IMG/VR virus record: IMGVR_UViG_3300047284_000455
Span: 1-20,400 of that record
DNA: 20,400 nucleotides
Strand: one strand, 5' to 3'
From: a virus
Shown here: positions 2,578 to 20,400 of the stretch, piece by piece
How the letters are laid out: each line of letters opens with the position of its first letter
How positions within the stretch are numbered: position 1 is the stretch's first letter
The notes under the pieces: generated by a model
Database searches by the model: none
What the model saw: only the letters and a program-made list of their open reading frames with translations
What the model was told of the DNA's origin: nothing
Position numbers and translations under genes: made by a program

Positions 2578-3873
2578 TTAAGCCTCCACTATTACTTGGT
2601 CTGTGGTCAGATTGGCGTATTCTTGCTTCATGCAGGAGGTAGGCGCCATCCAGAGAGAGTCGTAATCCGACACCTGCTCATAGAGGTTGATGAGATCTTC
2701 GTCAAAGGGGGCGGTCAACCAGTCCGCCACGGGCACATAGTCCCGGTGAATGATGCTCCGGGTGTCCTTAATTCGAGTGACTGTGTAAGTAGAGTCAGTG
2801 TCTACCTCAGCCAGCTTACAGTAGGCGGCCGGAACTTCCTCTCCCTGGTTGTTGAGAACAGTTGCTGGCAGTGTGTTCACGGGGTACATAACCAGAACCA
2901 CTCGAGGAGAAGGCGAAGCTTGTGGCTCCAGCAGAGTGAGATTTCCAGACACCGTGATGGACTGGATGGACACATTGGCCGAGGAAAAGGTCACGTTCCA
3001 ACCCGTTTGCAAGACAGGCTCTTCCACGGTGAGGGTGAAGAACTGACCAACCGTGTCAGAAGACACGGAGGCAGTTGCCGCAGGGGTCAACACACCGTCG
3101 TTGACGTAGGACAGGGTGGCTGTGCCAGTGTAGGCAGTGCCCGCAGGGCAACGCAAAGTCACCGTTTTGTATGCGTGGCCGAGCTCGCTTTCCCACTGCA
3201 GATAGGCAGTTGCGGGTTGAGCAAATGCAGGGAAGTACGTGTCCTCGTTTGCCCAGAAGTTGGTCTCGGTGTTGAGAAAAGCATTGACAGTAGGGTAACG
3301 CCACCCGATCACGGAGTCTGTGCTCGCAGTGATGTCCAAGGGCAACCCTGTCAACGCAAAGTCGGAAACCTCGTACAATTGAGGAATCGGGGAATCATCG
3401 TAGATGAGCCGGTAAGCCAAATCGTACTTACCGCTCAACACGTCCAGGACTTCCAGGTTGACGACGGTGGGGAGAACCTCAACCTTGCCGTATTTCCACA
3501 CGATGTTCCCCGCTTTGATCAGCAGGTCTTGTTTGCTTTCCGAGGCCACCACCTCCAATGACACAGGACCGTTTATGCTGAGTCCGTAGGGAACGTAGAC
3601 GTACCCAACTTCCTCAATGCCTTCCCCGACAAAGGTGTTACCAAGAGTGTTGGACTCGTTGACAATGTTGAAAAAATCAACCTGATAAGTCTCAGCAGAA
3701 GCCGGCAAACGTCGATAAATGGGTCGACCGTCGGGAACCCACTCTGTGGGTCGAGATTCCAGATTGTTGACGCCGATGTACTGCCGAGACAGAACATTTA
3801 ATCGATTCGGGGAAGTGGTAGACTGAATCTGGGGGACTACACCACCACTTGTGGGAGTAAGTAGCTGACTCAT
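2578..3873 (-). CDS. Putative baseplate/tail structural protein (431 aa)
   Basis: The protein starts MSQLLTPTSGGVVPQ and ends TTDQVIVEA. Its ATG overlaps the stop of the baseplate J gene (ATGA), and its own stop is one base before the next start, so the three genes form a tightly coupled set. The first 100 or so residues look like an attachment segment. The middle (about 220-330) is rich in Thr, Ser and Val with alternating hydrophobics, as in an immunoglobulin-like or jelly-roll beta domain. The C-terminal 80 residues are more acidic and aromatic. No catalytic motif, signal peptide or membrane helix is visible. Context points to a baseplate wedge or fibre-connector component. I cannot assign a family, so the role is inferred from position only. 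Confidence 0.75.
   Translation of the reverse strand: MSQLLTPTSGGVVPQIQSTTSPNRLNVLSRQYIGVNNLESRPTEWVPDGRPIYRRLPASAETYQVDFFNIVNESNTLGNTFVGEGIEEVGYVYVPYGLSINGPVSLEVVASESKQDLLIKAGNIVWKYGKVEVLPTVVNLEVLDVLSGKYDLAYRLIYDDSPIPQLYEVSDFALTGLPLDITASTDSVIGWRYPTVNAFLNTETNFWANEDTYFPAFAQPATAYLQWESELGHAYKTVTLRCPAGTAYTGTATLSYVNDGVLTPAATASVSSDTVGQFFTLTVEEPVLQTGWNVTFSSANVSIQSITVSGNLTLLEPQASPSPRVVLVMYPVNTLPATVLNNQGEEVPAAYCKLAEVDTDSTYTVTRIKDTRSIIHRDYVPVADWLTAPFDEDLINLYEQVSDYDSLWMAPTSCMKQEYANLTTDQVIVEA
2583..2587 (-). promoter_or_regulatory. Ribosome binding site fixing the GTG start at 2576
   Basis: The minus strand reads GTGGAGGCTTAACGTG. GGAGG lies six bases before the GTG. It supports GTG rather than a later internal ATG as the start of the large tail protein. 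The site lies inside the last codons of the upstream gene, so the two genes are translated in close succession. Confidence 0.7.
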
Positions 3874-6701
3874 AACTTAAGTGTTCCCTCACCGTAATCA
3901 GGGGGTGAGTAGGGATAAGCGGTTCCAGAAGACCAGGAAAGCTGAGGAACTTCTGCGATAGTCGCAGTGTTTTCCCACACGAACTTCACCTGCTCCTGAG
4001 AGTTGGCAAAACGACCCTTATTTTTCGGGATAATCGTGATCTGGGCGACCCCTAGCTTAATCGCAGAAACATCTCGACCAAGCTGAGAAAAGATGGACTC
4101 CTCGCAAGTGTACTGATCAACATAGCGCAGAAGATTGCCAAAAAATTCCTCATTCCGTGCCGTGTTGACAACTGCGGTGTTAGTCCAGTTTACAACCGTA
4201 TCGGGAGGAGTGAAGGCAAGCATCGTGCGATATAGGTTTCGCCCATCGATGGACACCACCGTGTCCTCAGAGTAGATGGCGTAGGCCGGGTCGAAGTAGG
4301 GTACGTAGTCAACGGTGTCAAACTGGGTGTCCAGGTAACGAGCCGTCTCCACAAAGATTCCGTTCTCCAGGTAAATGTAAAATTCAAAAAGTGGGTGGAC
4401 GTTAGTTGTTGCGGTGTAGGAAATAACCTGAGACCCTTGACGGAAGAATGTGCGATCACCTTTGAAGAAACGGAACATTCGAGTCGGTTGCTTGACTGTG
4501 CCCGCAGAGTTCATCAAATCCGCTACCAGGGACAAATACTGAGTGCGATCAAGGTATAACGGAAACACGAGGCCTTGATTTACCAGATCTTGGGCGCTGG
4601 TGCTGGTAGGGGTGAAATATTTGGCAGCAATGTAGTACTGGGGGGCGGAACTGGAATCTTCTCGATATTCCAAGTAGGTTCCTGCGGGGAACCGTGGCTT
4701 GTACTTGTAGATCGGCAAGCCCCCGTCCGCATTCTGTACTACAATCTCTTTGACGATGTCTTGCTCCACAAGCCTGTCAAAATATACACTGACGGTTTGT
4801 CCGTCAGGCTCGTAAGTGAAAGCTTGTTGGACGTAAGCATACTTATTAACTACCCCCAAACGAATGTCCACGTAATTGTAGTAAGGATCAGCAACGGGGT
4901 TAGGTCCAGAGCCAATCTGTGGGGTGTAGACCCAGTCGCCCACGGAGTAGGAAGTTCCCGGCTGTAAAATGATGGGGGAAATAGGTGCACCCAACTTAAA
5001 CGCCGTCTGACCGCCAGTTATATCGTTAGTTTGAGACTGTAGAGTAAAGTTCTGGTTTACGACCCAAACAAAGGTACCCGGACGCTGGTTTTGGGGGATG
5101 AGGGAGTCGGGGTTTGGAATGAACTCGTCTGCCGAGTAGTCATACTGGATGATCTCCGGGTCATATACCCCCCCGCTTGTGGACTCTTGGTAAGTTCCCC
5201 CAATAACGGGCCAAGAGGAATAGGTTTTTGCTCCGGATATCTTGCCTTTGGCGATCAAAGTGATTACATCAGTTTGTGAGCCAATTGTAAGGTTCTCGTT
5301 GATTACGTGAAGTTCGGAGTCACCTTCCACGGAGGGATCCCAATAGCAGACTTGGCCCTGAACATACTCCCCAGGGACGAGGAACTGAATTTGCTGAAGA
5401 ACTAAATTGCCGTAGATAGTTTGATCTTTTTTAGCGATGGAGTAGGGAGTGAAATCCGCCAGAACCGGGTAATATACGGGAACCGGTAACGTGGTTTCTA
5501 CGAGATCGTTGAGAGTTAGCAGAGACTCAGTGGGCTCGAATGTGTAGACATTGGTGTAAGTTGCTGCCGCCGACTCTAAGAGGGGAGGTGTGTTGTATGC
5601 TGCGCTCACTTTAATGTGAGGGTCGATGAATCGAGTAGACGCAGGGAAAGTTGCGTAGAAAGCAGCGTCTACGTCGCTAACGGTAGGATCAACCGTTGCG
5701 GGGAAGACATTCCCTGGTCGCAAAACTTCAAAGAGGCGATCCCGGAAATTGAGTGAACTGTCTTTCAAGGTTTTTCCAAATTCACCATTGGCGTCAACTT
5801 CCACCGTCAAATCGTATTGAACTTGGCTCAGAGTGATGGGATACAAGTGCCCTTGATTCTCCACAGGCACCGAATAGTTCACAACATTCTGCCCACGTTC
5901 TAGCTGACTTTTGTTTAGTTCAACTCCGTCTGGACCCAAGACAAAAAAGGACACTTGCCCGTTGGGCTTCAAGTAGTCAGTAACATAGTTGTACGTGCCT
6001 TGGTTGGGGCGATTGGGTTGGACCGAAGTTTGAGTGCCAATGCCGTAGAAGTCCGTGAAGAAATCCTGCCAATCTTCTGCACTGACAGGGTTCCGACGAC
6101 GGATCAGGGTGAAGAAACGCTCCTGAACTTCCTGGTAGGTCTCTACATCGCTACCACCGGTGGCCGCTTGAGGGTTGGTGGCAGTGAGACCATTCACGTT
6201 GATGGCTGAAGTGCCAGTGATGGAATTGGCCGGAGAATTATAGATAGCACCAACATACTGGGATGCCACTGTTGCATAAGCAGTGCTTTCCCCCGGCGCC
6301 ACATACACTTCAGCATCAGTGATAAAAGTAAAGCTCTCACCACCCGTCAGATTGGCATCTGTCGTAAAAGCCGTGCCTGCGGGAATGGTTGTTACAGTGT
6401 CGGACGGAGGAACCGTCAGGGTCAAGCGAGCAACCGCAGGGGTGCCAACGCGCCGCATAGCGCCCAGAAAAGGTCCAAGCCACTCAATCAAAATGGATTG
6501 TGGTAGCTGGTTGGCCCAGAACAAAAATTCTCCCTGAGCGAATGCTTGTCCCTCAAGGAGGGCGGCCAAAGGGTTGCCAGCGCTGAAATCATTCAGCGTT
6601 TGGCCGGATGCCTGATAAACACGTTGAGAAGCGGCCTGAACGAGTTCCGCTTCATTGCGAGGATCAATGTTTACTGAGGGGAGCGGGGCATAGCGTGCCA
6701 T
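3870..6701 (-). CDS. Baseplate J-like (T4 gp6-type) wedge protein, 943 aa
   Basis: The N-terminal region matches the baseplate J/gp6 pattern. It has an early helical segment about residues 15-85, including NPLAALLEGQAFAQGEFLFW. Next comes GTPAVARLTLTVPPSDTVTT with TIPAGTAFTT at about 85-115, the typical 'P-x-G-T' beta entry. Then follows ATGGSDVETYQEVQERFF at about 180-200 and the RRRNPVSAEDWQDFF segment near 205. In contractile tails this family builds the wedge ring around the central hub. At 943 residues it is longer than P2 gpJ (about 300) and T4 gp6 (about 660). The extra C-terminal 600 residues are beta-rich and unassigned. The ATG at 6701 is preceded by GGAG at six bases. It ends in an ATGA overlap with the next gene. 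Confidence 0.88.
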   Translation of the reverse strand: MARYAPLPSVNIDPRNEAELVQAASQRVYQASGQTLNDFSAGNPLAALLEGQAFAQGEFLFWANQLPQSILIEWLGPFLGAMRRVGTPAVARLTLTVPPSDTVTTIPAGTAFTTDANLTGGESFTFITDAEVYVAPGESTAYATVASQYVGAIYNSPANSITGTSAINVNGLTATNPQAATGGSDVETYQEVQERFFTLIRRRNPVSAEDWQDFFTDFYGIGTQTSVQPNRPNQGTYNYVTDYLKPNGQVSFFVLGPDGVELNKSQLERGQNVVNYSVPVENQGHLYPITLSQVQYDLTVEVDANGEFGKTLKDSSLNFRDRLFEVLRPGNVFPATVDPTVSDVDAAFYATFPASTRFIDPHIKVSAAYNTPPLLESAAATYTNVYTFEPTESLLTLNDLVETTLPVPVYYPVLADFTPYSIAKKDQTIYGNLVLQQIQFLVPGEYVQGQVCYWDPSVEGDSELHVINENLTIGSQTDVITLIAKGKISGAKTYSSWPVIGGTYQESTSGGVYDPEIIQYDYSADEFIPNPDSLIPQNQRPGTFVWVVNQNFTLQSQTNDITGGQTAFKLGAPISPIILQPGTSYSVGDWVYTPQIGSGPNPVADPYYNYVDIRLGVVNKYAYVQQAFTYEPDGQTVSVYFDRLVEQDIVKEIVVQNADGGLPIYKYKPRFPAGTYLEYREDSSSAPQYYIAAKYFTPTSTSAQDLVNQGLVFPLYLDRTQYLSLVADLMNSAGTVKQPTRMFRFFKGDRTFFRQGSQVISYTATTNVHPLFEFYIYLENGIFVETARYLDTQFDTVDYVPYFDPAYAIYSEDTVVSIDGRNLYRTMLAFTPPDTVVNWTNTAVVNTARNEEFFGNLLRYVDQYTCEESIFSQLGRDVSAIKLGVAQITIIPKNKGRFANSQEQVKFVWENTATIAEVPQLSWSSGTAYPYSPPDYGEGTLKL

Positions 6702-7372: not shown

Positions 7373-7816
7373 TCAAGTTCTCTCAAAATAGTTCACAGTA
7401 AATTCAACCTCGATGGTCTGAACATCGCCGCTCTCACGGTCAACGTCAGCTGTGGTGATGCTCACGAATTGACACTCGTAGCAAACATACTGACCACCTG
7501 CGGGAGCGGATCCCTGACCGGAACAGTCACGCGGGGTGACGGTAATGGTGACAGGATTACAGTTGTAGTCGAGCCAGAACTGTTCAAGAGTCTTGAAAAT
7601 GTTCGGGTCGTACGGGGCCGTCAGAGTAACGTTGTCCGCAGTCCGAGGACCAACAATGTGATAGAGACGGTTGCCTGTGCCGTTTGCGTAGGTGCTGCTG
7701 TCTGAGGAATCATTGATTCCGCTAAACTGGGTGAACACCGCCGTAAAGGTCGGTCCACCGAGCGCAGTGAAGCTTACTTCGTACTGCGCCTTTGTGATTG
7801 GACGAAGAATTGCCAT
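7373..7816 (-). CDS. Tail tube protein, T4 gp19-like (147 aa)
   Basis: At 147 residues the protein fits the size of contractile-tail tube subunits (T4 gp19 is about 160). The order of features fits too: an N-terminal beta strand; FTQFSGINDSSDSSTYANG at about 28-46, where the family has 'F-x-x-(C/V)SG'; NRLYHIVGPRTADNVTLTAP, where the family has 'K-x-P-G-x-x-x-x-x-x-L'; a helix with LEQFWLDY; and a final strand EVEFTVNYF. This subunit stacks in hexamers to form the inner tube that is driven through the cell envelope when the sheath contracts. It is translated from the strongest ribosome binding site in the window and is followed by a terminator, as expected for an abundant virion protein. Confidence 0.85.
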   Translation of the reverse strand: MAILRPITKAQYEVSFTALGGPTFTAVFTQFSGINDSSDSSTYANGTGNRLYHIVGPRTADNVTLTAPYDPNIFKTLEQFWLDYNCNPVTITVTPRDCSGQGSAPAGGQYVCYECQFVSITTADVDRESGDVQTIEVEFTVNYFERT

Positions 7817-10310: not shown

Positions 10311-10906
10311 CGAGGGTTCCTCGCGATTCGACGGATCTGACTCATTCCGACACCGTAACGGGTGGCGAGTTCTGAGCAGTTTCCGTTGTGTCCGTTTTTC
10401 TTGCCGGGGATGTATTCCAGAGCAATCTGGCGGCGGTCGTCATTCGTGAGTTTGGATCGACCGTTCTTCTCCCCGTGATGCCCATTGATGTTTGGGTTGC
10501 TTTCGCCAGTCATATCATGATGGCGACCTTCAGCCCATGCTGCGGCGACTCCTTTTCCGATCCGCTCTTTGGCCTCAAGGCGGTGGAGACGGCCGGTTCG
10601 AGTCCGGCTCATCTCGGCTTTGGCTTCTTGACTGAAGCGATAGCCGGGAATGCCCTCTCCGCCATCAGTGTAGTTCCTCAGGCAACCGGTGCCGTTGTTT
10701 TTTCTCCCCAAGACAGCAATCATATACACCTCGTGTTGAACCGACTCGGCATAAGTGAGGCCAGTCTTGAGGAAGAGAATCCGTTCCTTTGGGGGCACCT
10801 TGACGAAGTGCCCGCTCCGCTGGAATGCTCGGCGGTGCTTGCCCCGTCCGATGTAGTACGGGGTCCGATCCTCACGAAGGTAGGCGTAGGTGTAGTAGTT
10901 ATTCAT
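10298..10906 (-). CDS. GIY-YIG homing endonuclease HE2 (202 aa)
   Basis: The N-terminus shows the GIY-YIG nuclease fold: YTYAYL at residues 5-10 in the 'GIY' strand, YYIGRGKHRRAF at 17-28 for 'YIG' plus the catalytic Arg region, HEVYMI with Glu59 as the likely metal-binding Glu, and NYTDGGEG near 78-85. After that come EMSRTRTGR and GESNPNINGHHGEKNGRSKL, resembling the NUMOD3-type DNA-binding modules of phage homing enzymes. A C-terminal helix-turn-helix follows (CSELATRYGVGMSQIRRIAR at about 178-197). Such free-standing enzymes cut alleles lacking the gene and spread by repair. It sits between the protease and minor head genes. Its last 13 bases overlap the minor head start, and its coding sequence provides that gene's ribosome site. 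Only a weak GGGG-type ribosome site precedes its own ATG. Confidence 0.88.
   Translation of the reverse strand: MNNYYTYAYLREDRTPYYIGRGKHRRAFQRSGHFVKVPPKERILFLKTGLTYAESVQHEVYMIAVLGRKNNGTGCLRNYTDGGEGIPGYRFSQEAKAEMSRTRTGRLHRLEAKERIGKGVAAAWAEGRHHDMTGESNPNINGHHGEKNGRSKLTNDDRRQIALEYIPGKKNGHNGNCSELATRYGVGMSQIRRIARNPRWTS
10311..10323 (-). promoter_or_regulatory. Ribosome binding site of the minor head gene inside a hairpin
   Basis: The minus strand reads CGAGGAACCCTCG directly before the ATG at 10310. The GAGG of the ribosome site is the left arm of a perfect five-pair stem with an AAC loop. The sequence is also coding (the end of HE2). A ribosome finishing HE2 stops at 10298, just past the ATG, and would open the stem, so coupled translation is plausible. 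Confidence 0.5.
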
Positions 10907-10969: not shown

Positions 10970-13654
10970 TCAGGAAGAATACATCGTTTTCTTGAGTGCT
11001 TCCACATAGTCAGAGCACTCGCCGGATTCAACCATCTTCAGAGCCTTTGCGTGGGGATCCAGGTCCTCTTCGGCATACTGGAAGGTACCACCGGCAACCT
11101 CGCCGAAGGAAACCATCGGAGGCAGCTTGCTCAGCAGGGTGAGCAGTTTGGTGGCAGCAGTTTCGCCCTCGGAGAATTCCAGAGTGCCAAACTCCAGGCC
11201 TTCCACGTAGGAGAGGAGCTCTTGCTCGGGCATGATGCCGTCGGTCAGACGACCTTCGGTGTACATGTGACCGATTGCCTCAGACAGTTGGTGCTGGCGG
11301 AAGCTCATTTTTTCCATACGGTTGCGCTTCTCAAGCTCAGCGTACTGACGCTTGAGGTTGGCCAGCTCTTCAGCCATCTCACGGATGCCCATGCCCACGG
11401 GAGCAGCCTGGCTCATGGAGCCCATGCCACCGTACTCCATGCCGCAATGGTCAACGGAGTATTCGTTGTAGGACTCTTCGCCCTCATCCACACCGCTGTC
11501 GCCTTCACCTTCACCTGCCTCGTAGGTAGAACCAAAGCCGGTCTTGGTGTAAGGATCCTTCTTCTCACCGTGCTCCTCAGCATAGACGCCACCAGACTTT
11601 TTGGTGATTTCGGCGGGATCGGTCACAGTGTCCATGGCGCCAGGGGTCAACTGCTTGCTCTTGCTAGCCTTGCCCTCAGCATAGGCACCGCCAGGACCCA
11701 CGATTTCAGCGGGATCGTCAACTTCGTCCATAGCGCCAGGAGTCAGTTGCTTGCCGGTGGCTTTCTTTTCGCCCTTGTAGGACTCAGCGAAGGCACCACT
11801 GGGACCCACGATCTCGGCAGGATCGTCGGTGGTGTCCATAGCACCAGGAGTCAGTTGCTTGTCCTTGGAAGGCTTGCCAGCGCCTTCACCGTGCTCAACG
11901 GTCTTGGCGTCGGTCATGCCCTTCTTGGCTGTGGTCACACCGTCATCGCCGGTCATTTCGTCGGCCTGGGGCTCAGCGAAAGCGGGGATGGGGCCGCCCT
12001 TCAGGGCTTCACGACCTTGGCTGGAGGTTTGACGTAGAACGCGCATGTTCTTGTCGCTCATGACGTTTTGAGTCTGAACGGCGAACACCTCGTTGTCAGG
12101 CATTTCCTCGGTTTCCACGGGGATCTTGGTGGCGGTTTCCTTACGACCGTAGGGGTCGGTGCCAGTGGACTCCTCGGGGCGGCTGCCTTCGGGATAGTCT
12201 TCTTTACCAGCGTCATACTGGTCGTTGTTGGTCACTTGGTCATAGCCATCTTCCTGGCCAGCCCAGCGACCGGTGTCACCTTTGCCGAACTCACCATTCT
12301 TGGCAGTGTGCATGCGGTCTTTATCTTGCTCACCGTTTTCGGCGGTGTGCATGCGGTCACGATCCTGCTCACCGCTCTTGGCAGTCTGCATACGGCCAGT
12401 GCGGGCATCTGCACCGGCTTTACCGGTCTTCATGCGGTCAACATAGCCGTCAGAATCGGAACGAGCGGTGTCATAACGACCCTCGTCACCACCTTCCTCT
12501 TCTTTCTTGGTTCCGAAGTGCACTTTACCGCCTTTGGATGTCTTGTAAGACACTTCGTCATACTCGAGCTCAGCGTGATCGGCAGATCCAGGACCACCAT
12601 CTCCACCATGACGCTTCATGACACCGGAGTCAGTCATGTCATCTTCGGAGTGCTTGGCTTCCTTGATGAGCTTGTCTTCTTCTTTGCCAAAGCGTTTTAC
12701 TTCCTTGGCCTCTTCATCTTTGCCTTCTTTCTTCAAGCGCTTGGCTTCGAAGGCACGATCAGCAGCAGCCTTGCGCTCATCGGTAGATTCTTTGTGTGCT
12801 TCTTCGTAGACGTTTTCTACTACTTGCATCACTTGGCCGTGGGCACCCTTTTCGTGCTTCCGGCTGATTTTTCCTTTTTCCATAAATTCCTCTTCCGGAA
12901 ATTGAGTTTCGAGGTCAGCCGTCTGCTGAGAAATTTCAGTTCCTTCGCGACCCACGTGTTTGCTGGTTTCTTTGAATTGGGGAGCATCTGGGTTGGCCAT
13001 TTGAGCGGCCTCGGGTTGTTCCGTCACGGATGACGTAGCCACCTCTTCCAGTTGCTCGGTCGGTTGTGATTGTTGGTTGCTTTGGAGATCTTTTACCGCA
13101 CTCGATACATCCTGACGGACTTCATCGAGTTTCTCCCGGAGCATTTCGAGAGGACTCTTTTCCACAATGAGCGTGGGTCCGAGTTCCTCATCAAAAATGT
13201 CAGAGGGGGCGAGAGCCACGGCGAAGTCAAAGACCCCGTCCGATTCAGCGAATGTGAAGGGCTCCAAACCCTTCACTGCCGGAGGCGAGGCCCCCAGCAA
13301 GGCCAGGTGTCGGGCGCTCCACTTCCCCTTGTGTGGGTTGATGGCAGAATCTGGGGAGTAGAAAGAGATTGAAACCTTGCGGTAATGCCCGTCTTTCACC
13401 AGATCCTTGGCTGTGTCGGTAAAGGCCACGTCGGCATACAAATTGCCCCCTTGCTGACTGAATCCTTTGATCCAGCCATAGGCAGGGAGGCTGTCATTGT
13501 CGCCTGCGTGACCAATCACCAGGGGAGCTTCATGGATTGAGGGATCGTAAGTTTTGACTACCTGCTCAAGGTCCTTTTCAGAGAAATGCCTCTGGACACC
13601 TTGAGCGGAGGTCTGATCACCTGCTTTGAAGACGTGAATACGTTTTTGAAACAC
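10970..13654 (-). CDS. Prohead protease/scaffold, Mu gpI-type, with long repetitive acidic middle (894 aa)
   Basis: Residues 1-130 fit the Mu gpI-like prohead protease: an early strand (RIHVFKAG), APLVIGHAGDNDSLPAYGWI at 43-62 (the conserved 'GH ... GWI' motif), LYADVAFTD, YRKVSISFYSP near 91-101, and HLALLGASPPAVKGLEPF at about 116-133. These proteins cleave scaffold and capsid parts in the prohead. The C-terminal part has a coiled coil near 755-785 (EELANLKRQYAELEKRNRME) and a helical end with SGECSDYVEALKKTMYSS, as expected for a scaffold. About 500 Lys/Glu/Asp/Gly-rich residues lie between, with two repeat families. Mu gpI is only about 360 residues. The start is a GTG directly preceded by an in-frame TAA, so no longer form is possible, and no clear ribosome site is seen. 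A well-placed internal start (Met258, ATG at 12883 after GAGGAA) could give a separate scaffold. Confidence 0.85.
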   Translation of the reverse strand: MFQKRIHVFKAGDQTSAQGVQRHFSEKDLEQVVKTYDPSIHEAPLVIGHAGDNDSLPAYGWIKGFSQQGGNLYADVAFTDTAKDLVKDGHYRKVSISFYSPDSAINPHKGKWSARHLALLGASPPAVKGLEPFTFAESDGVFDFAVALAPSDIFDEELGPTLIVEKSPLEMLREKLDEVRQDVSSAVKDLQSNQQSQPTEQLEEVATSSVTEQPEAAQMANPDAPQFKETSKHVGREGTEISQQTADLETQFPEEEFMEKGKISRKHEKGAHGQVMQVVENVYEEAHKESTDERKAAADRAFEAKRLKKEGKDEEAKEVKRFGKEEDKLIKEAKHSEDDMTDSGVMKRHGGDGGPGSADHAELEYDEVSYKTSKGGKVHFGTKKEEEGGDEGRYDTARSDSDGYVDRMKTGKAGADARTGRMQTAKSGEQDRDRMHTAENGEQDKDRMHTAKNGEFGKGDTGRWAGQEDGYDQVTNNDQYDAGKEDYPEGSRPEESTGTDPYGRKETATKIPVETEEMPDNEVFAVQTQNVMSDKNMRVLRQTSSQGREALKGGPIPAFAEPQADEMTGDDGVTTAKKGMTDAKTVEHGEGAGKPSKDKQLTPGAMDTTDDPAEIVGPSGAFAESYKGEKKATGKQLTPGAMDEVDDPAEIVGPGGAYAEGKASKSKQLTPGAMDTVTDPAEITKKSGGVYAEEHGEKKDPYTKTGFGSTYEAGEGEGDSGVDEGEESYNEYSVDHCGMEYGGMGSMSQAAPVGMGIREMAEELANLKRQYAELEKRNRMEKMSFRQHQLSEAIGHMYTEGRLTDGIMPEQELLSYVEGLEFGTLEFSEGETAATKLLTLLSKLPPMVSFGEVAGGTFQYAEEDLDPHAKALKMVESGECSDYVEALKKTMYSS
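11560..11860 (-). repeat. Three 32-36-residue tandem repeats within the protease/scaffold gene
   Basis: The units begin at 11860, 11752 and 11656 with KQLTPGAMD, continue with (D/T)DPAEI(V/T) and end with (G/S)G(A/V)(F/Y)AE. Spacings of 108 and 96 bases keep frame. DNA identity between copies is high in the KQLTPGAMD part. Repeat number could vary between relatives by slippage or recombination. The repeated (F/Y)AE ends, also seen as FAES and FAEP elsewhere in the protein, could be processing sites for the maturation protease, which is inference. Confidence 0.8.
12281..12439 (-). repeat. Four 13-residue repeats (DRMHTAKNGEQDK-type) within the protease/scaffold gene
   Basis: Units of 39 bases, with consensus (D/G)RM(H/Q/K)T(A/G)(K/E)(N/S/A)G followed by EQD(R/K) in two of them. 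The Met codons lie at 12433, 12391, 12352 and 12313, so spacing is 42, 39 and 39 bases. The two central copies are almost identical at DNA level, which points to recent duplication. The repeats are charged and hydrophilic and probably form an extended linker. Confidence 0.82.
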
Positions 13655-13680: not shown

Positions 13681-13693
13681 GTTTTTACCCTAC
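13681..13693 (-). promoter_or_regulatory. Recurrent motif GTAGGGTAAAAAC, copy C (candidate phage promoter)
   Basis: Identical over 13 bases to copy A. It lies 26 bases before the GTG start of the protease gene, and its TAG is the stop codon of the portal gene. The 35-base gap between the two genes holds little else. A shorter relative (GAAGGGTAAAA) at 15950-15960 serves as the ribosome site of HE1 and may be coincidental. Confidence 0.5.
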
Positions 13694-15294
13694 TTTCTAT
13701 CCATCTCGACAGCTTCGTCTTCGGTAATGGTTTGGTTGCCGAAGGGTTTCTTTGCGGGTTGTTCCTCCTCACTTTCCATGCTACCTAGCAATCGCTCAAT
13801 CTCATCATCGGTAATCCATTGGTCACTCTCCGGAATCGCCTTTGCGGTGGCTTTGCTTGCTACGCTATCTAGTTGCTTTTCTACGTCGGGTGCGCTCACA
13901 GAGTCGGACTGGGTTTCTTCGGGGGCAGCGCCAGCAGGCATGTCCATTACATTTGCGGCAGCATCTAAATTTTGCGTGGCTGCTTGTTCCCTTTCGTCCC
14001 CAAAAATGGATTCAAATAGGTCTTGATCTTGCTGTGGATCGTATTGGGTGGTTGCTTCTTCACTCTCGCCCGCCTCTTTTTCCTCCAGCTCCACACGGAA
14101 GTGACGCTCAATCCATTCCTTACGGGGCGTGTAACCCGACTGAATCAGAAGAGAAACGTCAGGCATTGTGAGGGGGGATTCCTCGATACGGAACTCGCGG
14201 GTCAGAACCGGCGCAGCAACATCCACGCCGAAGTTCAAATCCACGATCCAACGGACCAGTGTCTGTGTCAGGGTGTGGGAGAGAGCTTCCGAAAGCTCGC
14301 TGGCCCGCACCACACGCACGGTGTTGGCCACTTGAGAGGAAGCGCGAGAACCGGACTCGGCTTGGCCTGCTTCGTTCTCTCCACAAATGACAAGGGAAAT
14401 TTCTTTGTCGATGTATTCAATCAGGTTTTTGAACACCTCGGGGGAGCCGGAGGGCACTACGAACTCAAGCTCGTAGCCCTCGGGCAAAATCATTGCGGTT
14501 TCTTGGGAGAGATTGGATAGATGGCCGTAGAGAGTATCCAGCTCTCGTGTGCTCGCAGAGAGTGGTGCCTTTGCAACAGCTGTCGGCGTCGCGTAACGGT
14601 CGCCGTAGAGGACGTAAGATTCGATGGCACGGCGCCGAAACTTGACAAGAGGATAAAGAATCCGACCGAGAGCAGCACCGTATGGGTCCCCATTGTGCGA
14701 AACATAATACCTCGACACGATAAACTTTCTCTGAGGCAACTCAACACCCTCAAACATCCGGTTGAAGGTCAAACATCTCATTGTAAAACCGTTCACAGCG
14801 TCCTGTTCTTCTTGGAACACAAATCGCCGTTGGTCCCTCATCCTCACGTCAAAGGGGATAACCCCCCTCTTAGTTTTCTTCCACATGATTTCCCCAACGG
14901 AGAAACCGGTAATCAGAGCCTCGGCCATGCCCATGTAGATTTCGTCAAGGGGCATTTCTTCCAGGACCTCTGCAACAAAGTCACGCACTGCGAGGTCACC
15001 AGGTTTGTCGGAATATTGCTGAACGTACCACGGACGGGAAGTTACCTCTTGCAGCAACTTGCGGAAGCAAGATTGTACTTGTTCGTCGTAGAGCAAGCGC
15101 TGATAGACAACGAGTGCCCGGTTTCCGCCCTTCTGCAGTAAGAGGTCATCATTCGGACGAACAATCGTGTTTCCAGCACCCGTGAAGGGGCTGGAACTTC
15201 CGAACATGTAGATCGACGAAAGATTGTAAGGGTCAGAAGTGTATCTGGCCACTTCCCCACTAGGGACTGGAGCAGTTTTAAATCTTTGCGCCAC
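13690..15294 (-). CDS. Portal protein, Mu gp29 (DUF935) type, 534 aa
   Basis: The pattern of Mu-type portals is clear. LLQEVTSRPWYVQQ at about 84-97 corresponds to the 'I-x-S-R-x-W-x-V' segment. EALITGFSVGEIMWK at about 125-139 is the 'L-x-x-G-x-S-x-x-E-I-x-W' motif. Others are FIVSRYYVSHNGDPYGAALG (about 191-210), ESYVLYGDRYATPTAVAK (about 225-242), and AMILPEGYELEFVVPSGS (about 267-284). The C-terminal 130 residues are acidic and low-complexity. The portal forms the dodecameric ring for DNA entry and joins head to tail. The size is usual for the family. The start is GTG, two bases after the HE1 stop, with AAGGAG at nine bases inside the HE1 coding end. The stop lies within the recurrent motif at 13681-13693. 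Confidence 0.9.
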   Translation of the reverse strand: MAQRFKTAPVPSGEVARYTSDPYNLSSIYMFGSSSPFTGAGNTIVRPNDDLLLQKGGNRALVVYQRLLYDEQVQSCFRKLLQEVTSRPWYVQQYSDKPGDLAVRDFVAEVLEEMPLDEIYMGMAEALITGFSVGEIMWKKTKRGVIPFDVRMRDQRRFVFQEEQDAVNGFTMRCLTFNRMFEGVELPQRKFIVSRYYVSHNGDPYGAALGRILYPLVKFRRRAIESYVLYGDRYATPTAVAKAPLSASTRELDTLYGHLSNLSQETAMILPEGYELEFVVPSGSPEVFKNLIEYIDKEISLVICGENEAGQAESGSRASSQVANTVRVVRASELSEALSHTLTQTLVRWIVDLNFGVDVAAPVLTREFRIEESPLTMPDVSLLIQSGYTPRKEWIERHFRVELEEKEAGESEEATTQYDPQQDQDLFESIFGDEREQAATQNLDAAANVMDMPAGAAPEETQSDSVSAPDVEKQLDSVASKATAKAIPESDQWITDDEIERLLGSMESEEEQPAKKPFGNQTITEDEAVEMDRK

Positions 15295-15296
15295 TT

Positions 15297-15950
15297 TTAC
15301 TTACTCCTTTTGAGACGGCCTAGTGTCCAATCACCATCGGGATTGGATTTGAACTTCTTTTCCGATGTGCCGTTGTTGAACCATCGGGTTCCGAAAGAAG
15401 GAGACAACTCGCCACTCTTCCCGTACATGGGGTTGTTCTCGCCGGCTAAAGGAGCCTTAAGTCCCCTTCCGCCAAGGGTCCAGCCCTCTCCGGGACACTC
15501 CGCCTCAAGAACATAGTTCCCTTTTCCGTCGTTCCACCATCGCTTACCGTATGCAGGGTTCGTTTCCCCCGCACAGTGAGCGGTTCGACGAGCGATTACT
15601 TCCGCATCCCATACTTTACCGTAGAGGTGATGATCGGGACCACCTGTGCCCAGGGCGGACGGTGGAACTTCAGCCTTTGGGTTAAGGTTGTAGCACCACA
15701 CGGTCCCGTGATAAAAGTCCAGATAATACTGTTCCTCATTACGGGTCTCCAACTCGTCGTCCTCACTTACGATCCAGTAGAAGTTTTCAGGATCTTTACG
15801 AAGAGAGTTTTGAAAAGGGTAGTCTTCGTTGGAGTTGAGATGTCCCTTTTGCCTTTTAGTAAAGTCCGTGGTACTTCCCACGTAAAACTTCTTGTTGGTT
15901 AGATTGATCGCGGCGTAGGTAATCACTCGACAACAGCGTTGATAACTCAT
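15297..15950 (-). CDS. GIY-YIG homing endonuclease HE1 with NUMOD3-like DNA-binding modules (217 aa)
   Basis: I chose the ATG at 15950 (MSYQRCCRVITYAAINL) because GAAGGG lies four bases before it and the nuclease fold begins at once. A longer frame would run 100 bases into gp25 with unlikely sequence. GIY-YIG signatures are ITYAA (10-14), FYVGSTTD (22-29) with Arg33, and NEEQYYLDFY for the metal-binding Glu. The rest is DNA-recognition modules: PDHHLYGKVW, GETNPAYGKRWWNDG and GENNPMYGKSGE (NUMOD3-like). Two W(W/F)N(D/N)G ... GWTLGR-type units end in ECPGEGWTLGGRG and NPDGDWTLGRLKR. It lies between gp25 and the portal. A hairpin begins in the gp25 stop codon, and the last HE1 codons form the portal ribosome site, so the element is inserted with almost no disturbance. 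Confidence 0.88.
   Translation of the reverse strand: MSYQRCCRVITYAAINLTNKKFYVGSTTDFTKRQKGHLNSNEDYPFQNSLRKDPENFYWIVSEDDELETRNEEQYYLDFYHGTVWCYNLNPKAEVPPSALGTGGPDHHLYGKVWDAEVIARRTAHCAGETNPAYGKRWWNDGKGNYVLEAECPGEGWTLGGRGLKAPLAGENNPMYGKSGELSPSFGTRWFNNGTSEKKFKSNPDGDWTLGRLKRSK
15304..15309 (-). promoter_or_regulatory. Portal ribosome binding site inside the HE1 coding end
   Basis: The minus strand reads AAAAGGAGTAAGTAAAAGTG. AAGGAG lies nine bases before the portal GTG and encodes the final Arg-Ser of HE1. It supports the GTG at 15294 as the portal start. Confidence 0.65.
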
Positions 15951-15971
15951 TTTACCCTTCGCCAGTCTCTG

Positions 15972-15990
15972 TAAATCGCGAAGCGATTTA
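15972..15990 (-). other. Perfect hairpin between gp25 stop and HE1 start
   Basis: Minus-strand TAAATCGC, loop TTC, GCGATTTA: an eight-pair stem whose first three bases are the gp25 stop codon. It lies 21 bases before the HE1 ATG. No T-run follows, so it is not a simple terminator. CTTCGC of its top is also complementary to GCGAAG overlapping the HE1 ribosome site (15957-15962), which allows an alternative fold. Confidence 0.6.
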
Positions 15991-16365
15991 GTTTGCCAGG
16001 GTGAAGTTGAGGGGAGGTTGGGGTTGCCCGTTGACTGAATACTCAATGAAGACTTTGTAGACACCGTCTTCCCCCTGAGACCGCCAATCACCAGTCACTG
16101 ACAGGTCGGTCAACCCTTGCACATTTTGCAGAATGCTGTATTGAATTGCGGAGTTGATTTGACCAGGGTCGAGAACCTCCAGCACATAGTCTCCGATACC
16201 GTAATCCGCCCGCATTACCCTTTCGTAGTAGCGGGTTTCCACAACACTGCGGATTTGTTGAGTCACGGTGGCGTAGTCGGTGCTGGTTGCCAGATTGCCA
16301 TTGACCACAGTCAAAGGGTAAGTCAAACCCCGAACCGCAGGGGACAGAATCGTTGGATCACTCAT
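15988..16365 (-). CDS. Baseplate protein of the gpW/gp25 family (125 aa)
   Basis: The length and pattern fit the T4 gp25/P2 gpW family: GLTYPLTVVNGNLATSTDYA at about 13-32, the helix VTQQIRSVVETRYYERVM (about 34-51) with the conserved 'I-x-x-x-(L/V)-x-T-x-x-x-E-R-x-M/P-x-x-x-(F/Y)G' pattern continuing RADYGIGDYVLE, and a C-terminal beta hairpin (VYKVFIEYSV ... PPLNFTLAN). In contractile tails gp25 joins wedge to hub and nucleates the sheath, so lying just after the sheath gene is sensible. The ATG overlaps the previous stop (ATGA). The stop is the first codon of the hairpin at 15972-15990. Confidence 0.87.
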   Translation of the reverse strand: MSDPTILSPAVRGLTYPLTVVNGNLATSTDYATVTQQIRSVVETRYYERVMRADYGIGDYVLEVLDPGQINSAIQYSILQNVQGLTDLSVTGDWRSQGEDGVYKVFIEYSVNGQPQPPLNFTLAN

Positions 16366-16640
16366 CGGATGTATCTGCGGGAAATTTGAAACTCAATGGT
16401 ATTCACACGCTTTCTGACTTCTTCTTTTGTCAAGTCGCTTTCAACAACTTTTCGGATTTCCTTGCGCAAATCTCCAAGGGTCATCGATTGATAATAGTTT
16501 GGATCCGCAAGGGACTCTTGTTTCTCTCCGGAAAGAAGGGAGAAGCAGAATGCTTCGAGGGAAACACCCTGCTCCTCCGCTTGTTTTTCCAGGTGAAAGA
16601 AAAGAGAGTCTGGGATCCGGAGGTTTAGGTCCCTGTACAT
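16362..16640 (-). CDS. Small ribbon-helix-helix-like protein (92 aa) between sheath and gp25
   Basis: The N-terminus reads MYRDLNLRIPDSLFFHLEKQ: a short strand (DLNLRIP), a first helix (DSLFFHLEKQAEEQG), a turn (GVS) and a second helix (LEAFCFSLLSG), the layout of the Arc/CopG/HicB-type DNA-binding fold. The C-terminal half is charged and helical (TLGDLRKEIRKVVESDLTKE). I preferred the ATG at 16640, which follows AGAGAG. A GTG at 16661 overlapping the sheath stop (GTGA) would add seven residues and is possible. It is stop-start coupled to gp25. The role could be regulation of the virion genes, or it may be a structural or chaperone-like protein with a similar-looking fold. Fold assignment is by eye. 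Confidence 0.72.
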   Translation of the reverse strand: MYRDLNLRIPDSLFFHLEKQAEEQGVSLEAFCFSLLSGEKQESLADPNYYQSMTLGDLRKEIRKVVESDLTKEEVRKRVNTIEFQISRRYIR

Positions 16641-16657
16641 TTGACTCTCTGTTAAAA

Positions 16658-19600
16658 TCACTGGTTAGACTGACCCAGACCCTGGATATCCAGTTCGTTC
16701 TGCATTTGACCGATGGCCACACGGATGAGGTCGATCTGAATGCGCTCAAGTGTCGGAACCGGGGTCACGAACACCTTGGCATTCACGATGCCGTTCTCCA
16801 GATCAGCACCCGTGTTGATCCGCTCATCGCAGATAACCTGGAAGGCATCGCTCGGACGAGCACCAAACAGTGCGCCACGAACGTACAACTGGTTCAGGAT
16901 GCTGTTACCAATCGAGATAATCTGGTTGAAGATTACGCCGAAACCATCGATCACGTTAAAGATCTGAGTGTCGAAAGCGTTACGCAGCGATCCGTACACC
17001 ACGTTGAGGATAACGCGAGTGTTGACAAACTGGTACAGCTTCTGCTGTGCGTCGTCAGGGTTGCCCAGACGGGTCCGACCACCCCAAATGAACACGGCAG
17101 TGTCAGGGTAGCCAGGCAGTGTGCGAACCACGTTACATCCCTTGGGATTCAGCAGGTTCTGCTGAGCCGAGTTAACCGGGATTTGAACGGCTTCAGCATC
17201 AGCCAACTGGAACTTAACACCGGCCGGCGGGAACTGGTAACCCTCGGAGCGGTAGCGACGGAGAGCCACACCGGTTACATAGGGGGACGGGGGAATGAAC
17301 TGACCCGCACCATTCTTGATATAAGAACCGTAGTAAGCAATGAAGCCGAAGGGGTTGGAATAACGCTGTGAGTCTTCCAGAAGGCGATTCACATTGTCAA
17401 CACCAGCCTCGACCAACTCAGCTTGAGGCGCACCGTTGAAGCCAATACCACGGAGAGCATCGCTGATGATCTCGGTAGAGGTGATGGCATCAAAGCGCCA
17501 GAGGTTACTGGGGACAGCTTGCTCTGGGGAGAAAGTCAGCTCAACCTGGGAACCGTAAAGCACAGTGGCCACGGTCGACAAATCGCCGCCATTGGCGTCG
17601 GAGGGAACAATCGCCCAATCGTAGGTGCCATCGTTGTAAATCAGAGCGATGCGGTCACCCACCACAACGGATTCGCCACCAGGTGCTGTACCAGCGCCAC
17701 CGACGACATCCATGTAGGTGCCAGGGAACTGGGTCTTAATCACTTCCAGGTTAGAGGCTGTCATGCCGACAACAAGGCCACAGGCTGCACTGTAGGCCGA
17801 GGTCGCGGTGAGGCTACCGCTAGCGTCATCGATTGTGCTGATTGTGAAGGTAGCGGTTCCATCGCTGAAGTCAGGAGCTGACACAGCCTCGCCGACAGAG
17901 TAACTCTGTCCACCACTGGTGAAGGTGATGCTGGTGATGCTATTGGTGGCGTCTACAACCAGGGTAGCTTTAGCACCTGTGGCGATAGAGACACCACTGG
18001 GCTCGATCGACACATTGCTGTAAGTGCCAGGAGCAACACCAGGAGCCAGGTTAATGCCGATGTTCGCTGCAGTTGCGGGGCCAAGTGTGCCTGTTACGGT
18101 GGGGTCATACTCCCCGGCTAGGACTGAATCGATAGACGGTACGAGATAGGCTTCCGATTGGAAGCTTTGATCCACAGTTGGTGTGCAATAGGCGTTACTG
18201 GTGGAAGAAGTCGGGGTCAGGGTTGGTGTTACACCGAGGAAGGCAGGTAGGTATCCGCACTTGGAGGATACTGTGAGGTCTTCACCCCAGGCACTGACTT
18301 GAGCCTCACCGAGAACGGTGGAGGAGTTATTCAGAACAATGCGGGCGGTAGGTCCCACTACCGGAAGAGTCCCAGGAGTTTCATCAGCTGACAGAGAGAC
18401 GTTGAAGATGGAAGAGGTGTCGAAACCGTACTTCCGTCCACGAATCATGGGCAACGTGGTAAGGGTCGTTGAGGTGATGGAGTTTACGTTCCGACCCAGA
18501 ATCTCTGTGTAGAAAGTGCTAGGATGAGTCGAGATGCTCAGACCCGTTCCGTAGGAAACATAGCTACCAGAAACGTAGTCGGCCAAAGAAGGAGCGATTA
18601 CGAAGGTGCTTGTTGTGAGGGTCTTTACCACGTAGGGGCGCGAAACGCTCTTAGTGGTTGGGCGAATCAGGGGAGTTGTGGTCGTAGCGTCAGAGGTGCT
18701 GATGGGGTTTGTAAAGAAGATGTTTTGACCATCAAGCAGACCGTGGCTCTCCACCGTGATAATGGCTGTACCGTCTGCTACGCTTGTGCTACCGCTTGCG
18801 CGAGCAATCTGAGCACTGGGGTCGTACAGTGTACGGGACGCCCAATTGAGTACGTACTCAGAAGTGAAATCCTGCAGAGTGCCGGGCAGATGGAGGGTGT
18901 TTACACCGACATCAGCGCCCGAGATGTTCTCAACCAGGTTGGAGGTCTGACCGTTGATTTCTACAGGAAGATCCCAGTAGGGGTCAGAGTAAGCGATCTC
19001 AGCGGTTGTGCCAGTTGGGGTAGGAACAATCACTGAGCCCACGAGGGGGGCAGTAACGTTCTTAGATCCACCTGCTAACTTAACGGTGTTGTAGATGTTG
19101 GAAGCGTCTCCGGCAGTTTGTGCCAGGAGAATGTAGTTGAGGCTATAGTCCGAAGAAACCTCGAGGTCGTACGGAGCGGCAATCACGTAGACTTCGGTGT
19201 TGTTCAGGTTCACGCCGGTGGCGCCACCCTGAATATCCACGTTAGCAAAGTCAGTGCCAGAAGCCACTCCTGAGAGGGCCACTTTTTGTATGGGTAGGTC
19301 TACGGGCCACTGACCACCGGCGGAGATTTGGAACACACCGTTATCCGCAGTGGCCGAAGCGGTCACAGTGTACTTGCCGCCATCTTCAAGACCGACCTTA
19401 GTGGAATCTGCCACGAGGTTGGCGGACTCATTGATCGCGATGCCAGGGTTGGCCCCAGTCACGAATTCTTGGTGGTCCAGTTTGTTGTAGGTGACGGAGT
19501 TACCGATCCACTTGTAGATGGCGTTGTCTACCAGGTAGCTATCGCCCTCGATCAGATCTGCGGCAGCCTGGTGAGGAGCGAAATCCTCATACTTGTTGAC

Positions 19601-20400
19601 ATCGGTTACCAGGAAAGGACCGGGGTCAGCCAGGGCCATCCACTTGTAGTTATTATTCTCACAATGGGCGGCGGCGGCGGCACCCACCAGAGCACGGCCC
19701 TCAGCATCGAACTGAGCGTAAGCGGTAGGGGTGATAAGGTAGCCTTGGTCTTGTTGACCGTCGAACGCAGTTTCGATGCACTGGGTGTAGTCTTGAGGGA
19801 CACGCACCAGGTCTACGGAGCCACCTACAATGTTTTGGATTTCGTAAGTGTTTTGCATCGCCACATAATTGCTGCCCACGGGCAGAACCTGGGTGATGAC
19901 GGTTACATTGGCATTGAAAGTGGTAGAAGCGATCGTAACGTAGCTGTTTTCGGAGTTAGCGTACTTGACGGGATCCAGGTCATTCAGTTGACCAAAATCA
20001 CGCACATACACCGAGCTGCGGATAGCAGGGTTGCTCTCGATGGCCAGGGTTACTGCGTCAGCGAGGGCGGACGAGATACGACGGTTGTTGGCTTCGTCAC
20101 CGGCGACATAGGACACCGGAATTATCACGGGCACGCCGAGCCACTCGCCGTCGGCAGTGTAGCCGGTGCTACCATCGCCAGCTACCAGTTTCTGACCGTT
20201 GATTACCATTTGAACATAGACCACGTCTCCGGCCATGAAGGCAGAAGGCAGATCTGAACTGTTTTGCTTGGTGCCGGAAGGCAAGAACTGAATTTCAACA
20301 ATCTGGTCGGGAGTGCCTACGCGAACAACGCGCAGGTCGCCAACTTGAGCGTTCTGGAAGAACTCATTGACGCAGTTATAGCTCAGGAGCGGGATACGTC
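16658..20400 (-). CDS. Tail sheath protein, unusually large, 5' end beyond window (1246 codons visible)
   Basis: The frame stays open to the window edge. A TTG at 20284 is not a real start, because codons above it continue sensible protein (YNCVNEFFQNAQVGDLRVVR, then VGTPDQIVEIQFLPSGTK). The C-terminal 300 residues carry the sheath signature: TSTEIISDALRGIGFNGAPQ, DSQRYSNPFGFIAYYGSYIK, SPYVTGVALRRYRSEGYQFP, NLLNPKGCNVVRTLPGYPDT, VFIWGGRTRL, and a final helical/strand region. The N-terminal 270 visible residues are also sheath-like (LADPGPFLVTDVN). The middle, roughly bases 17750-19480, is a Ser/Thr/Gly-rich beta insertion that includes an HGL-x2-G-type module (ESHGLLDGQNIFFTNP). The sheath contracts to drive the tube. 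At over 1240 residues it far exceeds T4 gp18 (659). Confidence 0.9.
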   Translation of the reverse strand, partial: RIPLLSYNCVNEFFQNAQVGDLRVVRVGTPDQIVEIQFLPSGTKQNSSDLPSAFMAGDVVYVQMVINGQKLVAGDGSTGYTADGEWLGVPVIIPVSYVAGDEANNRRISSALADAVTLAIESNPAIRSSVYVRDFGQLNDLDPVKYANSENSYVTIASTTFNANVTVITQVLPVGSNYVAMQNTYEIQNIVGGSVDLVRVPQDYTQCIETAFDGQQDQGYLITPTAYAQFDAEGRALVGAAAAAHCENNNYKWMALADPGPFLVTDVNKYEDFAPHQAAADLIEGDSYLVDNAIYKWIGNSVTYNKLDHQEFVTGANPGIAINESANLVADSTKVGLEDGGKYTVTASATADNGVFQISAGGQWPVDLPIQKVALSGVASGTDFANVDIQGGATGVNLNNTEVYVIAAPYDLEVSSDYSLNYILLAQTAGDASNIYNTVKLAGGSKNVTAPLVGSVIVPTPTGTTAEIAYSDPYWDLPVEINGQTSNLVENISGADVGVNTLHLPGTLQDFTSEYVLNWASRTLYDPSAQIARASGSTSVADGTAIITVESHGLLDGQNIFFTNPISTSDATTTTPLIRPTTKSVSRPYVVKTLTTSTFVIAPSLADYVSGSYVSYGTGLSISTHPSTFYTEILGRNVNSITSTTLTTLPMIRGRKYGFDTSSIFNVSLSADETPGTLPVVGPTARIVLNNSSTVLGEAQVSAWGEDLTVSSKCGYLPAFLGVTPTLTPTSSTSNAYCTPTVDQSFQSEAYLVPSIDSVLAGEYDPTVTGTLGPATAANIGINLAPGVAPGTYSNVSIEPSGVSIATGAKATLVVDATNSITSITFTSGGQSYSVGEAVSAPDFSDGTATFTISTIDDASGSLTATSAYSAACGLVVGMTASNLEVIKTQFPGTYMDVVGGAGTAPGGESVVVGDRIALIYNDGTYDWAIVPSDANGGDLSTVATVLYGSQVELTFSPEQAVPSNLWRFDAITSTEIISDALRGIGFNGAPQAELVEAGVDNVNRLLEDSQRYSNPFGFIAYYGSYIKNGAGQFIPPSPYVTGVALRRYRSEGYQFPPAGVKFQLADAEAVQIPVNSAQQNLLNPKGCNVVRTLPGYPDTAVFIWGGRTRLGNPDDAQQKLYQFVNTRVILNVVYGSLRNAFDTQIFNVIDGFGVIFNQIISIGNSILNQLYVRGALFGARPSDAFQVICDERINTGADLENGIVNAKVFVTPVPTLERIQIDLIRVAIGQMQNELDIQGLGQSNQ

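Follow-up and report, generated by a model that had tools for sequence, protein, structure and literature searches.

The nearest isolated relative of the protein described here is gp167 of the Synechococcus phage S-CBWM1 (Aokuangvirus), a protein of 1492 amino acids (aa) annotated as tail sheath in GenBank. The core of this type of sheath is known from the solved homologue of the Anabaena phage A-1(L) (PDB 8kee, 506 aa), which has no insertion at its residues 252–255. Extra domains on sheaths have been described before: a survey modelled 112 contractile phage sheaths (n = 153 in its protein table, lengths up to 1283 aa) and reported that large sheaths, some with five or more domains, carry extra beta domains outside the core and away from the tube, for which adhesion or stability was proposed (PMC9230969). 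Here we describe a giant tail sheath gene at the end of a 20,400-nucleotide stretch of viral DNA (positions 1 to 20,400 of the IMG/VR record IMGVR_UViG_3300047284_000455, hereafter the window). Its product has roughly double the size that is normal for a sheath. We favour, on balance, the reading that a large block of beta domains, modular and exchangeable, interrupts the sheath core in one surface loop and serves in weak adhesion. The sheath of S-CBWM1 resembles that of the window in its insertion site (915 residues are inserted there) and in sequence (47% identity over 84% of the query), and the gene order of the two phages is the same (gp25-like protein, portal, protease, capsid, tube, baseplate J). 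It differs by an added segment of ~277 residues after residue 731. Results on the S-CBWM1 virion proteome are cited in PMC10665884.

The giant gene and its parts are as follows.
16658..20398, minus strand: giant tail sheath gene; the contig edge removes its 5' end, which leaves 1246 visible residues and ~80 missing.
19616..20398, minus strand: N-terminal sheath core, visible part (residues 1–261); positions 191–252 of the A-1(L)-group hidden Markov model (HMM) match at residues 201–261 with an expectation value (E) of 2.5e-9; hhalign probability 98.4%.
17405..19615, minus strand: beta-rich insertion of 737 residues (262–998) in one core loop; HMM gap from 252 to 255; predicted local distance difference test (pLDDT) score of the block 73–96.
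16661..17404, minus strand: C-terminal sheath core (residues 999–1246); HMM positions 255–483 at residues 999–1236, E 3e-56; match to the A-1(L) sheath 8kee_A, E 5e-38.

The open reading frame (ORF) consists of 1246 uninterrupted codons and shows no start codon because the contig ends there. The relatives begin with MATFSLG ~80 residues upstream of the visible sheath start, and the full-length protein is therefore ~1325 aa long. An earlier note, made from the letters of the window, had set the 1246 visible residues against the 659 aa of T4 gp18, and both figures are correct. Its claim that typical sheath sequence stands at both visible ends was borne out by PHROG and PDB matches for the C-terminal part and at the profile level only for the N-terminal part. 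Besides 8kee_A, the C-terminal part matched the PHROG tail sheath families phrog_17610 (E 3e-43) and phrog_23 (E 2.5e-24), while the Pfam sheath models stayed below cut-off (Phage_sheath_1C, E 0.011; Phage_sheath_1, 13.4 bits). The N-terminal part was recognized when 23 sequences were compared with the A-1(L) group by hhalign, where the match extended over A-1(L) residues 1–252; residues 1–280 searched alone gave no PHROG match. As judged from these homologies, the product is a contractile tail sheath.

The insertion was delimited with a core HMM made from four A-1(L)-type sheaths. Because the two flanks match HMM positions 191–252 and 255–483, residues 262–998 replace two residues of the A-1(L) group. 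Relatives of the query are encoded by 301 candidate stretches in IMG/VR, not all of them shown to be giant, and 80 of these were kept. Among 85 family sheaths, the window included, we looked for a pair of matches of which the N-side one ends within HMM positions 230–262 and the C-side one begins no earlier than 245. Such a pair was found in 73 of the 85 sheaths, and in all 73 the N side ended at 251–253, the C side started at 245–260 and 618–1025 residues lay between the flanks. Five of the 12 remaining sheaths are cut before the site, and the other seven agree in layout although their local matches end raggedly: in L015, L059, L060, L061, L062 and L084, overlapping local matches pass the site and the flanks lie ~600–770 residues apart, and L026 agrees, but its end is cut.

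The earlier note had placed ~570 Ser/Thr/Gly-rich residues between the sheath ends. The insertion itself stands, but at 737 residues it is larger, and the ~570 residues are its part richest in Ser, Thr and Gly (34.1%). These three residues make up 31.8% of the insertion, compared to 19.9% and 17.7% of the two core parts, and the net charge of the insertion is −45. A module of the type H-G-L-x2-G, also named in the earlier note, is present as HGLLDG at residues 552–557, and HGL occurs somewhere in 68 of 84 aligned sheaths (L056 was omitted from this alignment). Eight residues inside the insertion are invariant among 18 sequences (I481, N482, G483, Q484, H552, N735, P740 and T741). In the A-1(L) sheath, residues 364–460 (domain II) face the tube, and the N-tail (1–27) and C-tail (461–505) contribute to ring stacking (PMC10966104). 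The insertion site, at A-1(L) residues 252–255, lies outside domain II and outside both tails.

A structural model of residues 47–1246 was predicted by AlphaFold2 from an alignment of 65 sequences. The block was predicted with pLDDT 73–96 over model residues 221–950, which correspond to window residues 267–996, so that its modelled limits nearly coincide with those of the insertion as defined by homology. A stretch on the N side with pLDDT 52–75 parts the block from the earlier N-terminal core (62–90). The A-1(L) sheath spans model residues 8–996 in structural alignment (Z 7.3, 158 residues, root mean square deviation (rmsd) 5.0). Several beta domains were modelled in the insertion, and the model carries no position relative to the tube. 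The earlier note had named a middle that forms part of the sheath core as the outcome that would overturn its reading; by profile and by model the middle is instead set apart from the core. We are highly confident of the architecture, an ordinary sheath core interrupted by a large insertion block. Because the site avoids domain II and both tails and the block is modelled as separate beta domains, outward display of the insertion is likely.

Within the insertion, the following elements were distinguished.
18983..19384, minus strand: beta domain 1 (residues 339–472), weakly like the FCCH barrel of ubiquitin E1; VIA-align Z 4.8–6.3 over 76–79 residues.
18497..18844, minus strand: HGLxxG domain (residues 519–634), a barrel like E1 FCCH and endosialidase; VIA-align Z up to 6.8 (E1).
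18728..18745, minus strand: HGLLDG motif (H-G-L-x2-G, residues 552–557), read in the sequence.
17798..18082, minus strand: GxGY module of ~95 residues (773–867); module HMM E 4e-18, the window's copy being among those that built the HMM.

The resemblance of beta domain 1 to E1 FCCH (rmsd 2.4–3.5, 8–14% identity) has Z below 8 and is suggestive. The HGLxxG domain aligned with the beta barrel of endosialidase NF (3ju4 residues 424–506) with Z 5.5 and 21% identity. The endosialidase beta barrel binds sialic acid. The corresponding Pfam families stayed below cut-off: PF12195 End_beta_barrel matched 2 of 23 members (E 0.047, 14.1 bits against a cut-off of 35) and PF16190 E1_FCCH matched one of 23, another member (E 0.038). 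Beta domain 1 and the HGLxxG domain share no sequence similarity (hhalign 0.7%), and an origin of the two barrel-like domains by duplication was rejected on that value. The HGLxxG segment was searched by tblastn in 50,697 phage records and matched S-CBWM1 only (2 records), for which reason we rejected it as a widespread phage sequence module; even with PHROG, no match extended to more than 2 of its 23 members. For another part, cupredoxin-like structural matches were obtained (SufI, Z 7.0, below 8). In a viral structure library, the S-CBWM1 sheath came first (E 9e-87), followed by cyanophage baseplate and fibre proteins with low template modelling (TM) scores, and an S-TIM5 virion protein was matched by the model over 93 columns with rmsd 2.7. 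Other matches were set aside: a PDB search with the whole model gave, apart from the A-1(L) sheath, long unspecific alignments (spike, integrin; probability at most 0.10), a Pfam FctA match (E 0.16) was taken as chance, and so was the match of one member in 22 to Ntox25 (E 5e-4), which gives no evidence of a toxin.

The GxGY module recurs within and beyond the sheaths. It occupies the window's site in 55 of the 84 aligned sheaths, four of which have longer runs, and is absent from 29 as judged by region length. Further copies were found after residues 532 (13 sheaths), 391 (one) and 901 (one). An HMM built from 51 own-site copies, with copies from other sites excluded, matched all 12 of the other-site copies given to it, with E from 1e-11 to 2e-19. 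Of these 12, 10 belong to the 13 at 532, one to 391 and one to 901; the copies are therefore homologous. In a shuffled control, two of 425 shuffled sheaths matched at E ≤10 (best 7e-4), while 54 of 85 real sheaths matched below 1e-10. Outside the sheath, copies were found in a protein of 326–357 aa encoded upstream of the sheath, in its S-TIM5 counterpart and in the baseplate J-like proteins of two relatives (L095 and L098); the window's own baseplate J-like protein has none. The module matched at E ≤0.001 in 17 of 20 related records searched; it was not found in the sheath or genome of S-CBWM1. Among deposited phages, 19 records gave a match, all of Synechococcus or Prochlorococcus phages (including gp7 of P-HM2). 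Searched against PHROG at E ≤0.01, the 51 module members matched virion structural (49), tail fibre (47), baseplate wedge (43) and head-closure (29) families. A match of one of the 51 to Gp18_dom_I (E 0.013) was weak and was not used. Modelled alone, the module was predicted to form six strands (pLDDT 75). Taken together, GxGY is, by its sequence distribution, a mobile module among sheath sites and virion proteins. A 748-aa ORF of a related phage (L099:2173-4416) matches the GxGY module about seven times, and three of these matches are better than E 0.002–0.1.

The lengths of the 67 complete family members, S-CBWM1 included, range from 1197 to 1614 aa and cluster ~90–100 aa apart (1197–1227, 1294–1338, 1394–1418, 1482–1521 and 1614). 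Not every step corresponds to a GxGY module, as other insertions also occur. One of these, a segment of ~280 residues after residue 731 (L024:8128-8970), is present in only four of the 84 aligned sheaths (L002, L023, L024 and L086) and has no Pfam match to E 0.1 and no PHROG match to E 0.01. A quick tree was made from the core columns of the 84 rows, with support from the Shimodaira–Hasegawa-like approximate likelihood ratio test (SH-aLRT) only. On this tree, the module at 532 needed five changes (L057, which starts after this site, scored as missing), the 731 segment two and the own-site state 11; well-supported branches force fewer, three for the 532 group. The ratio of nonsynonymous to synonymous substitution rates (dN/dS) was determined for the usable subsets of 70 close pairs, which overlap and are not independent. 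The median was 0.05 in the N-terminal core (51 pairs) and 0.03 in the C-terminal core (59 pairs), compared to 0.10 in insertion residues 262–764 (44 pairs), 0.16 in residues 868–960 (45 pairs) and 0.31 in the GxGY module (22 pairs). The insertion is a maintained coding part that changes faster than the cores and is under purifying selection.

Exchange of the block is suggested by one set of sheaths. When L041 and its near-copies (five contigs) were compared with L090, the proportion of differing synonymous sites (pS) was 0.12–0.18 in both cores and 0.66–0.68 in residues 301–764. DNA identity was 90–100% in the flanks, 85% in the border window and 66–78% inside where windows were free of gaps, and it dropped further where L090 lacks the module. 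Because relaxed constraint would leave synonymous divergence unraised, recombination is the simplest reading, and the insertion block was probably exchanged between these sheaths in that way. The window and L012 differ in the opposite direction, more weakly (pS 0.46 in the C-terminal core and 0.27 in the insertion).

If the insertion is displayed as proposed, each subunit would show ~740 extra residues outwards and the tail would wear a thick coat (in A-1(L), the sheath comprises 24 rings of six). The block changes in size as ~95-residue modules are gained or lost, and recombination would make it swappable between phages. Such a coat could form many weak contacts with glycans of the host envelope or with particles, and these could keep the phage near cells until the fibres engage, which would benefit adsorption. 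The likeness to the endosialidase barrel, the occurrence of the modules in baseplate wedge and tail fibre families and the one exchange are weak hints of adhesion; as the main benefit of the block, adhesion is a real prospect in our estimation, if a little short of even. Going further, the loop might be a dock for beta-domain cassettes that are exchanged like tail-fibre adhesins, the sheath becoming a swappable host- or particle-binding surface with a mobile module shared with other virion proteins, a proposal that we consider unlikely and put forward tentatively. On this proposal, at least a hundred weak binders would sit on the tail, and adsorption would depend in part on the type of sheath.

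Several results weigh against the adhesive, exchangeable block. The clear exchange amounts to one independent event (five pairs, one cluster, one partner contig), and L090 may be a chimeric assembly. Among 37 pairs with close cores, 30 show no excess divergence of this kind, two lie between and five show it, these five being the single event. The C-terminal core was mostly modelled with pLDDT below 50 and the insertion has no placement on the assembled tail, so that the outward position is a matter of inference; the missing N-terminus and low core diversity in the alignment may account for the poor model of this core. The barrel resemblances have Z below 8 with Pfam matches below cut-off, and may reflect a common arrangement only. 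For the GxGY module, six single-member Pfam matches were obtained among the 51 members, none of them Ig and no family fitting more than one of the 51, and the fold search gave Z of at most 4.6, with the barrels of glycine-cleavage T-protein and EF-Tu as the best matches, which is no proof that the fold is new.

The main rival is a stabilising coat, in which the block cements neighbouring subunits or rings and keeps the loaded tail stable in water, with no part in adhesion. In phage 812, an extra domain touches the neighbouring sheath subunit, and stability is one of the ideas offered for it (PMC9230969). S-CBWM1 retained infectivity over one year best of four phages, although that study drew no link to the sheath (PMC10783000). 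A cement for fixed neighbours should, however, change together with the core, whereas in the one exchange event the blocks diverged far more than the cores, and modules have been gained and lost at several sites. Since the blocks could still cement each other, we regard this explanation as unlikely but worth keeping in view. Adhesion and stabilisation both rank above two less likely explanations. The likely surface location, modularity, fast change and negative net charge of the block would also suit a shield or decoy that screens the sheath against proteases or against factors on the host surface, with diversity arising as escape; the dN/dS values are elevated yet well below 1, and we consider such a role quite improbable.

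Mostly nonadaptive accretion, in which a permissive loop merely tolerates virion modules that have been shuffled into it, is likewise improbable. The GxGY module has matches among families of diverse virion proteins and is the part under weakest constraint, both of which are in line with it, but at least 618 residues were kept in all 73 sheaths with both flanks placed, and the invariant residues of the block and the low dN/dS of residues 262–764 speak for constraint. The size of the block and its exact placement between the core halves might also be expected of a middle that is spliced out or processed (an intein or a part removed by protease) and absent from virions. We hold this to be very improbable, as the Pfam matches obtained at E ≤1 include no intein family and the block holds a module that matches virion-protein families. 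Weak adhesion thus remains the function that we favour for the block.

The sheath gene stands with a block of contractile-tail and head genes on the same strand (gp25-like protein, Mu-type portal, protease, capsid, tube and baseplate J), of which the following were placed by profile matches.
15988..16365, minus strand: gp25-like baseplate wedge gene; phrog_261 E 1.4e-6, Pfam GPW_gp25 E 1.7e-4 (below cut-off).
13690..15294, minus strand: portal (Mu type); PF06074 E 2e-71.
7373..7816, minus strand: tail tube; phrog_35249 E 7e-7.
3870..6701, minus strand: baseplate J-like protein; PF04865 E 6e-16.

Some further ORFs of this region were observed. Between the portal and gp25-like genes lies a GIY-YIG homing endonuclease ORF (15297-16091; E 4e-8, with NUMOD3). 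It has relatives at the same position in L008 and L027 and none in the compared stretches of L015, L022 and S-CBWM1; this patchy occurrence suggests an optional homing gene. An ORF of 202 aa (10298-10906) is GIY-YIG-like by eye, and a partial relative of it occurs in L027, immediately downstream of the sheath gene there. The sheath stop codon is overlapped by a 99-aa ORF (16362-16661) that also occurs in relatives, weakly resembles Arc-like repressors (phrog_582, E 0.0024) and is an odd member of a structural operon. The head maturation protease (10970-13654) is 894 aa long with a long charged C-terminal part; in the best alignment, the S-CBWM1 peptidase (~480 aa) aligns with its first ~182 residues only.

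The host is probably a cyanobacterium, as inferred from relatives. The host of S-CBWM1 is Synechococcus CBW1002, and a photosystem reaction-centre match above cut-off was obtained in four of the 12 records searched, S-CBWM1 included. One related virus record (L077) is 277 kb long, about twice the S-CBWM1 genome, and contains a photosystem reaction-centre gene. A search of the genome collection with two short peptide patterns returned 66 stretches, none of which was confirmed, and no relative.

The common view of sheaths is that of a conserved engine, but this clade keeps in one loop a block larger than the core. The site accommodates 600–1000 residues, and virion proteins of cyanophages repeatedly carry a module that has no Pfam family. 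A block swapped on a near-constant engine would make the role of extra sheath domains (adhesion, stability or shielding) testable. Giant size is shared with the sheath of S-TIM5 (Aurunvirus; 1137 aa), whose C-terminal core is related to that of the window (hhalign 99.9%). However, the ~640 extra residues of S-TIM5 (165–802) lie at A-1(L) ~139 to 189, and its sheath is continuous across 252–255. No insertion of the S-TIM5 type (139–189) was seen in the window, L065, L027 or S-CBWM1, where the extra mass is at 252–255. Within a small sample, in which the site coordinate in Pfam and PHROG profiles was estimated, the sheaths of T4, phiM9 and Ma-LMM01 (Pfam coordinates) and of Atu_ph07 and RaK2 (PHROG coordinates) look continuous at the site. 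T4 has at most 26 extra residues there, and PBS1 spans the site with at most 76, its match reading through one stop; the match of SCTP-2 starts past the site and phiKZ gave no match.

Like the window's sheath, the type 3 multi-domain sheaths of the survey are large and carry extra beta domains outside the core (PMC9230969). The earlier note's remark that known sheaths bear variable domains on the outer surface thus agrees with published work; for the window itself an outward coat is likely. The GxGY module resembles the promiscuous Ig-like virion domains treated in the same survey in being a small beta domain traded among virion proteins (PMC9230969); unlike these domains, it lacks a Pfam Ig match and close structural matches. 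The main text of the survey names neither S-CBWM1 nor S-TIM5, and the parts consulted describe no swapped cassette, mobile module or insertion site at 252–255 (PMC9230969). Given the published survey and the GenBank entry of S-CBWM1, the giant sheath as such was already known, and a giant sheath with extra beta domains is of a known kind; what is new here is the insertion site, the apparent cassette exchange and the hopping of the module.

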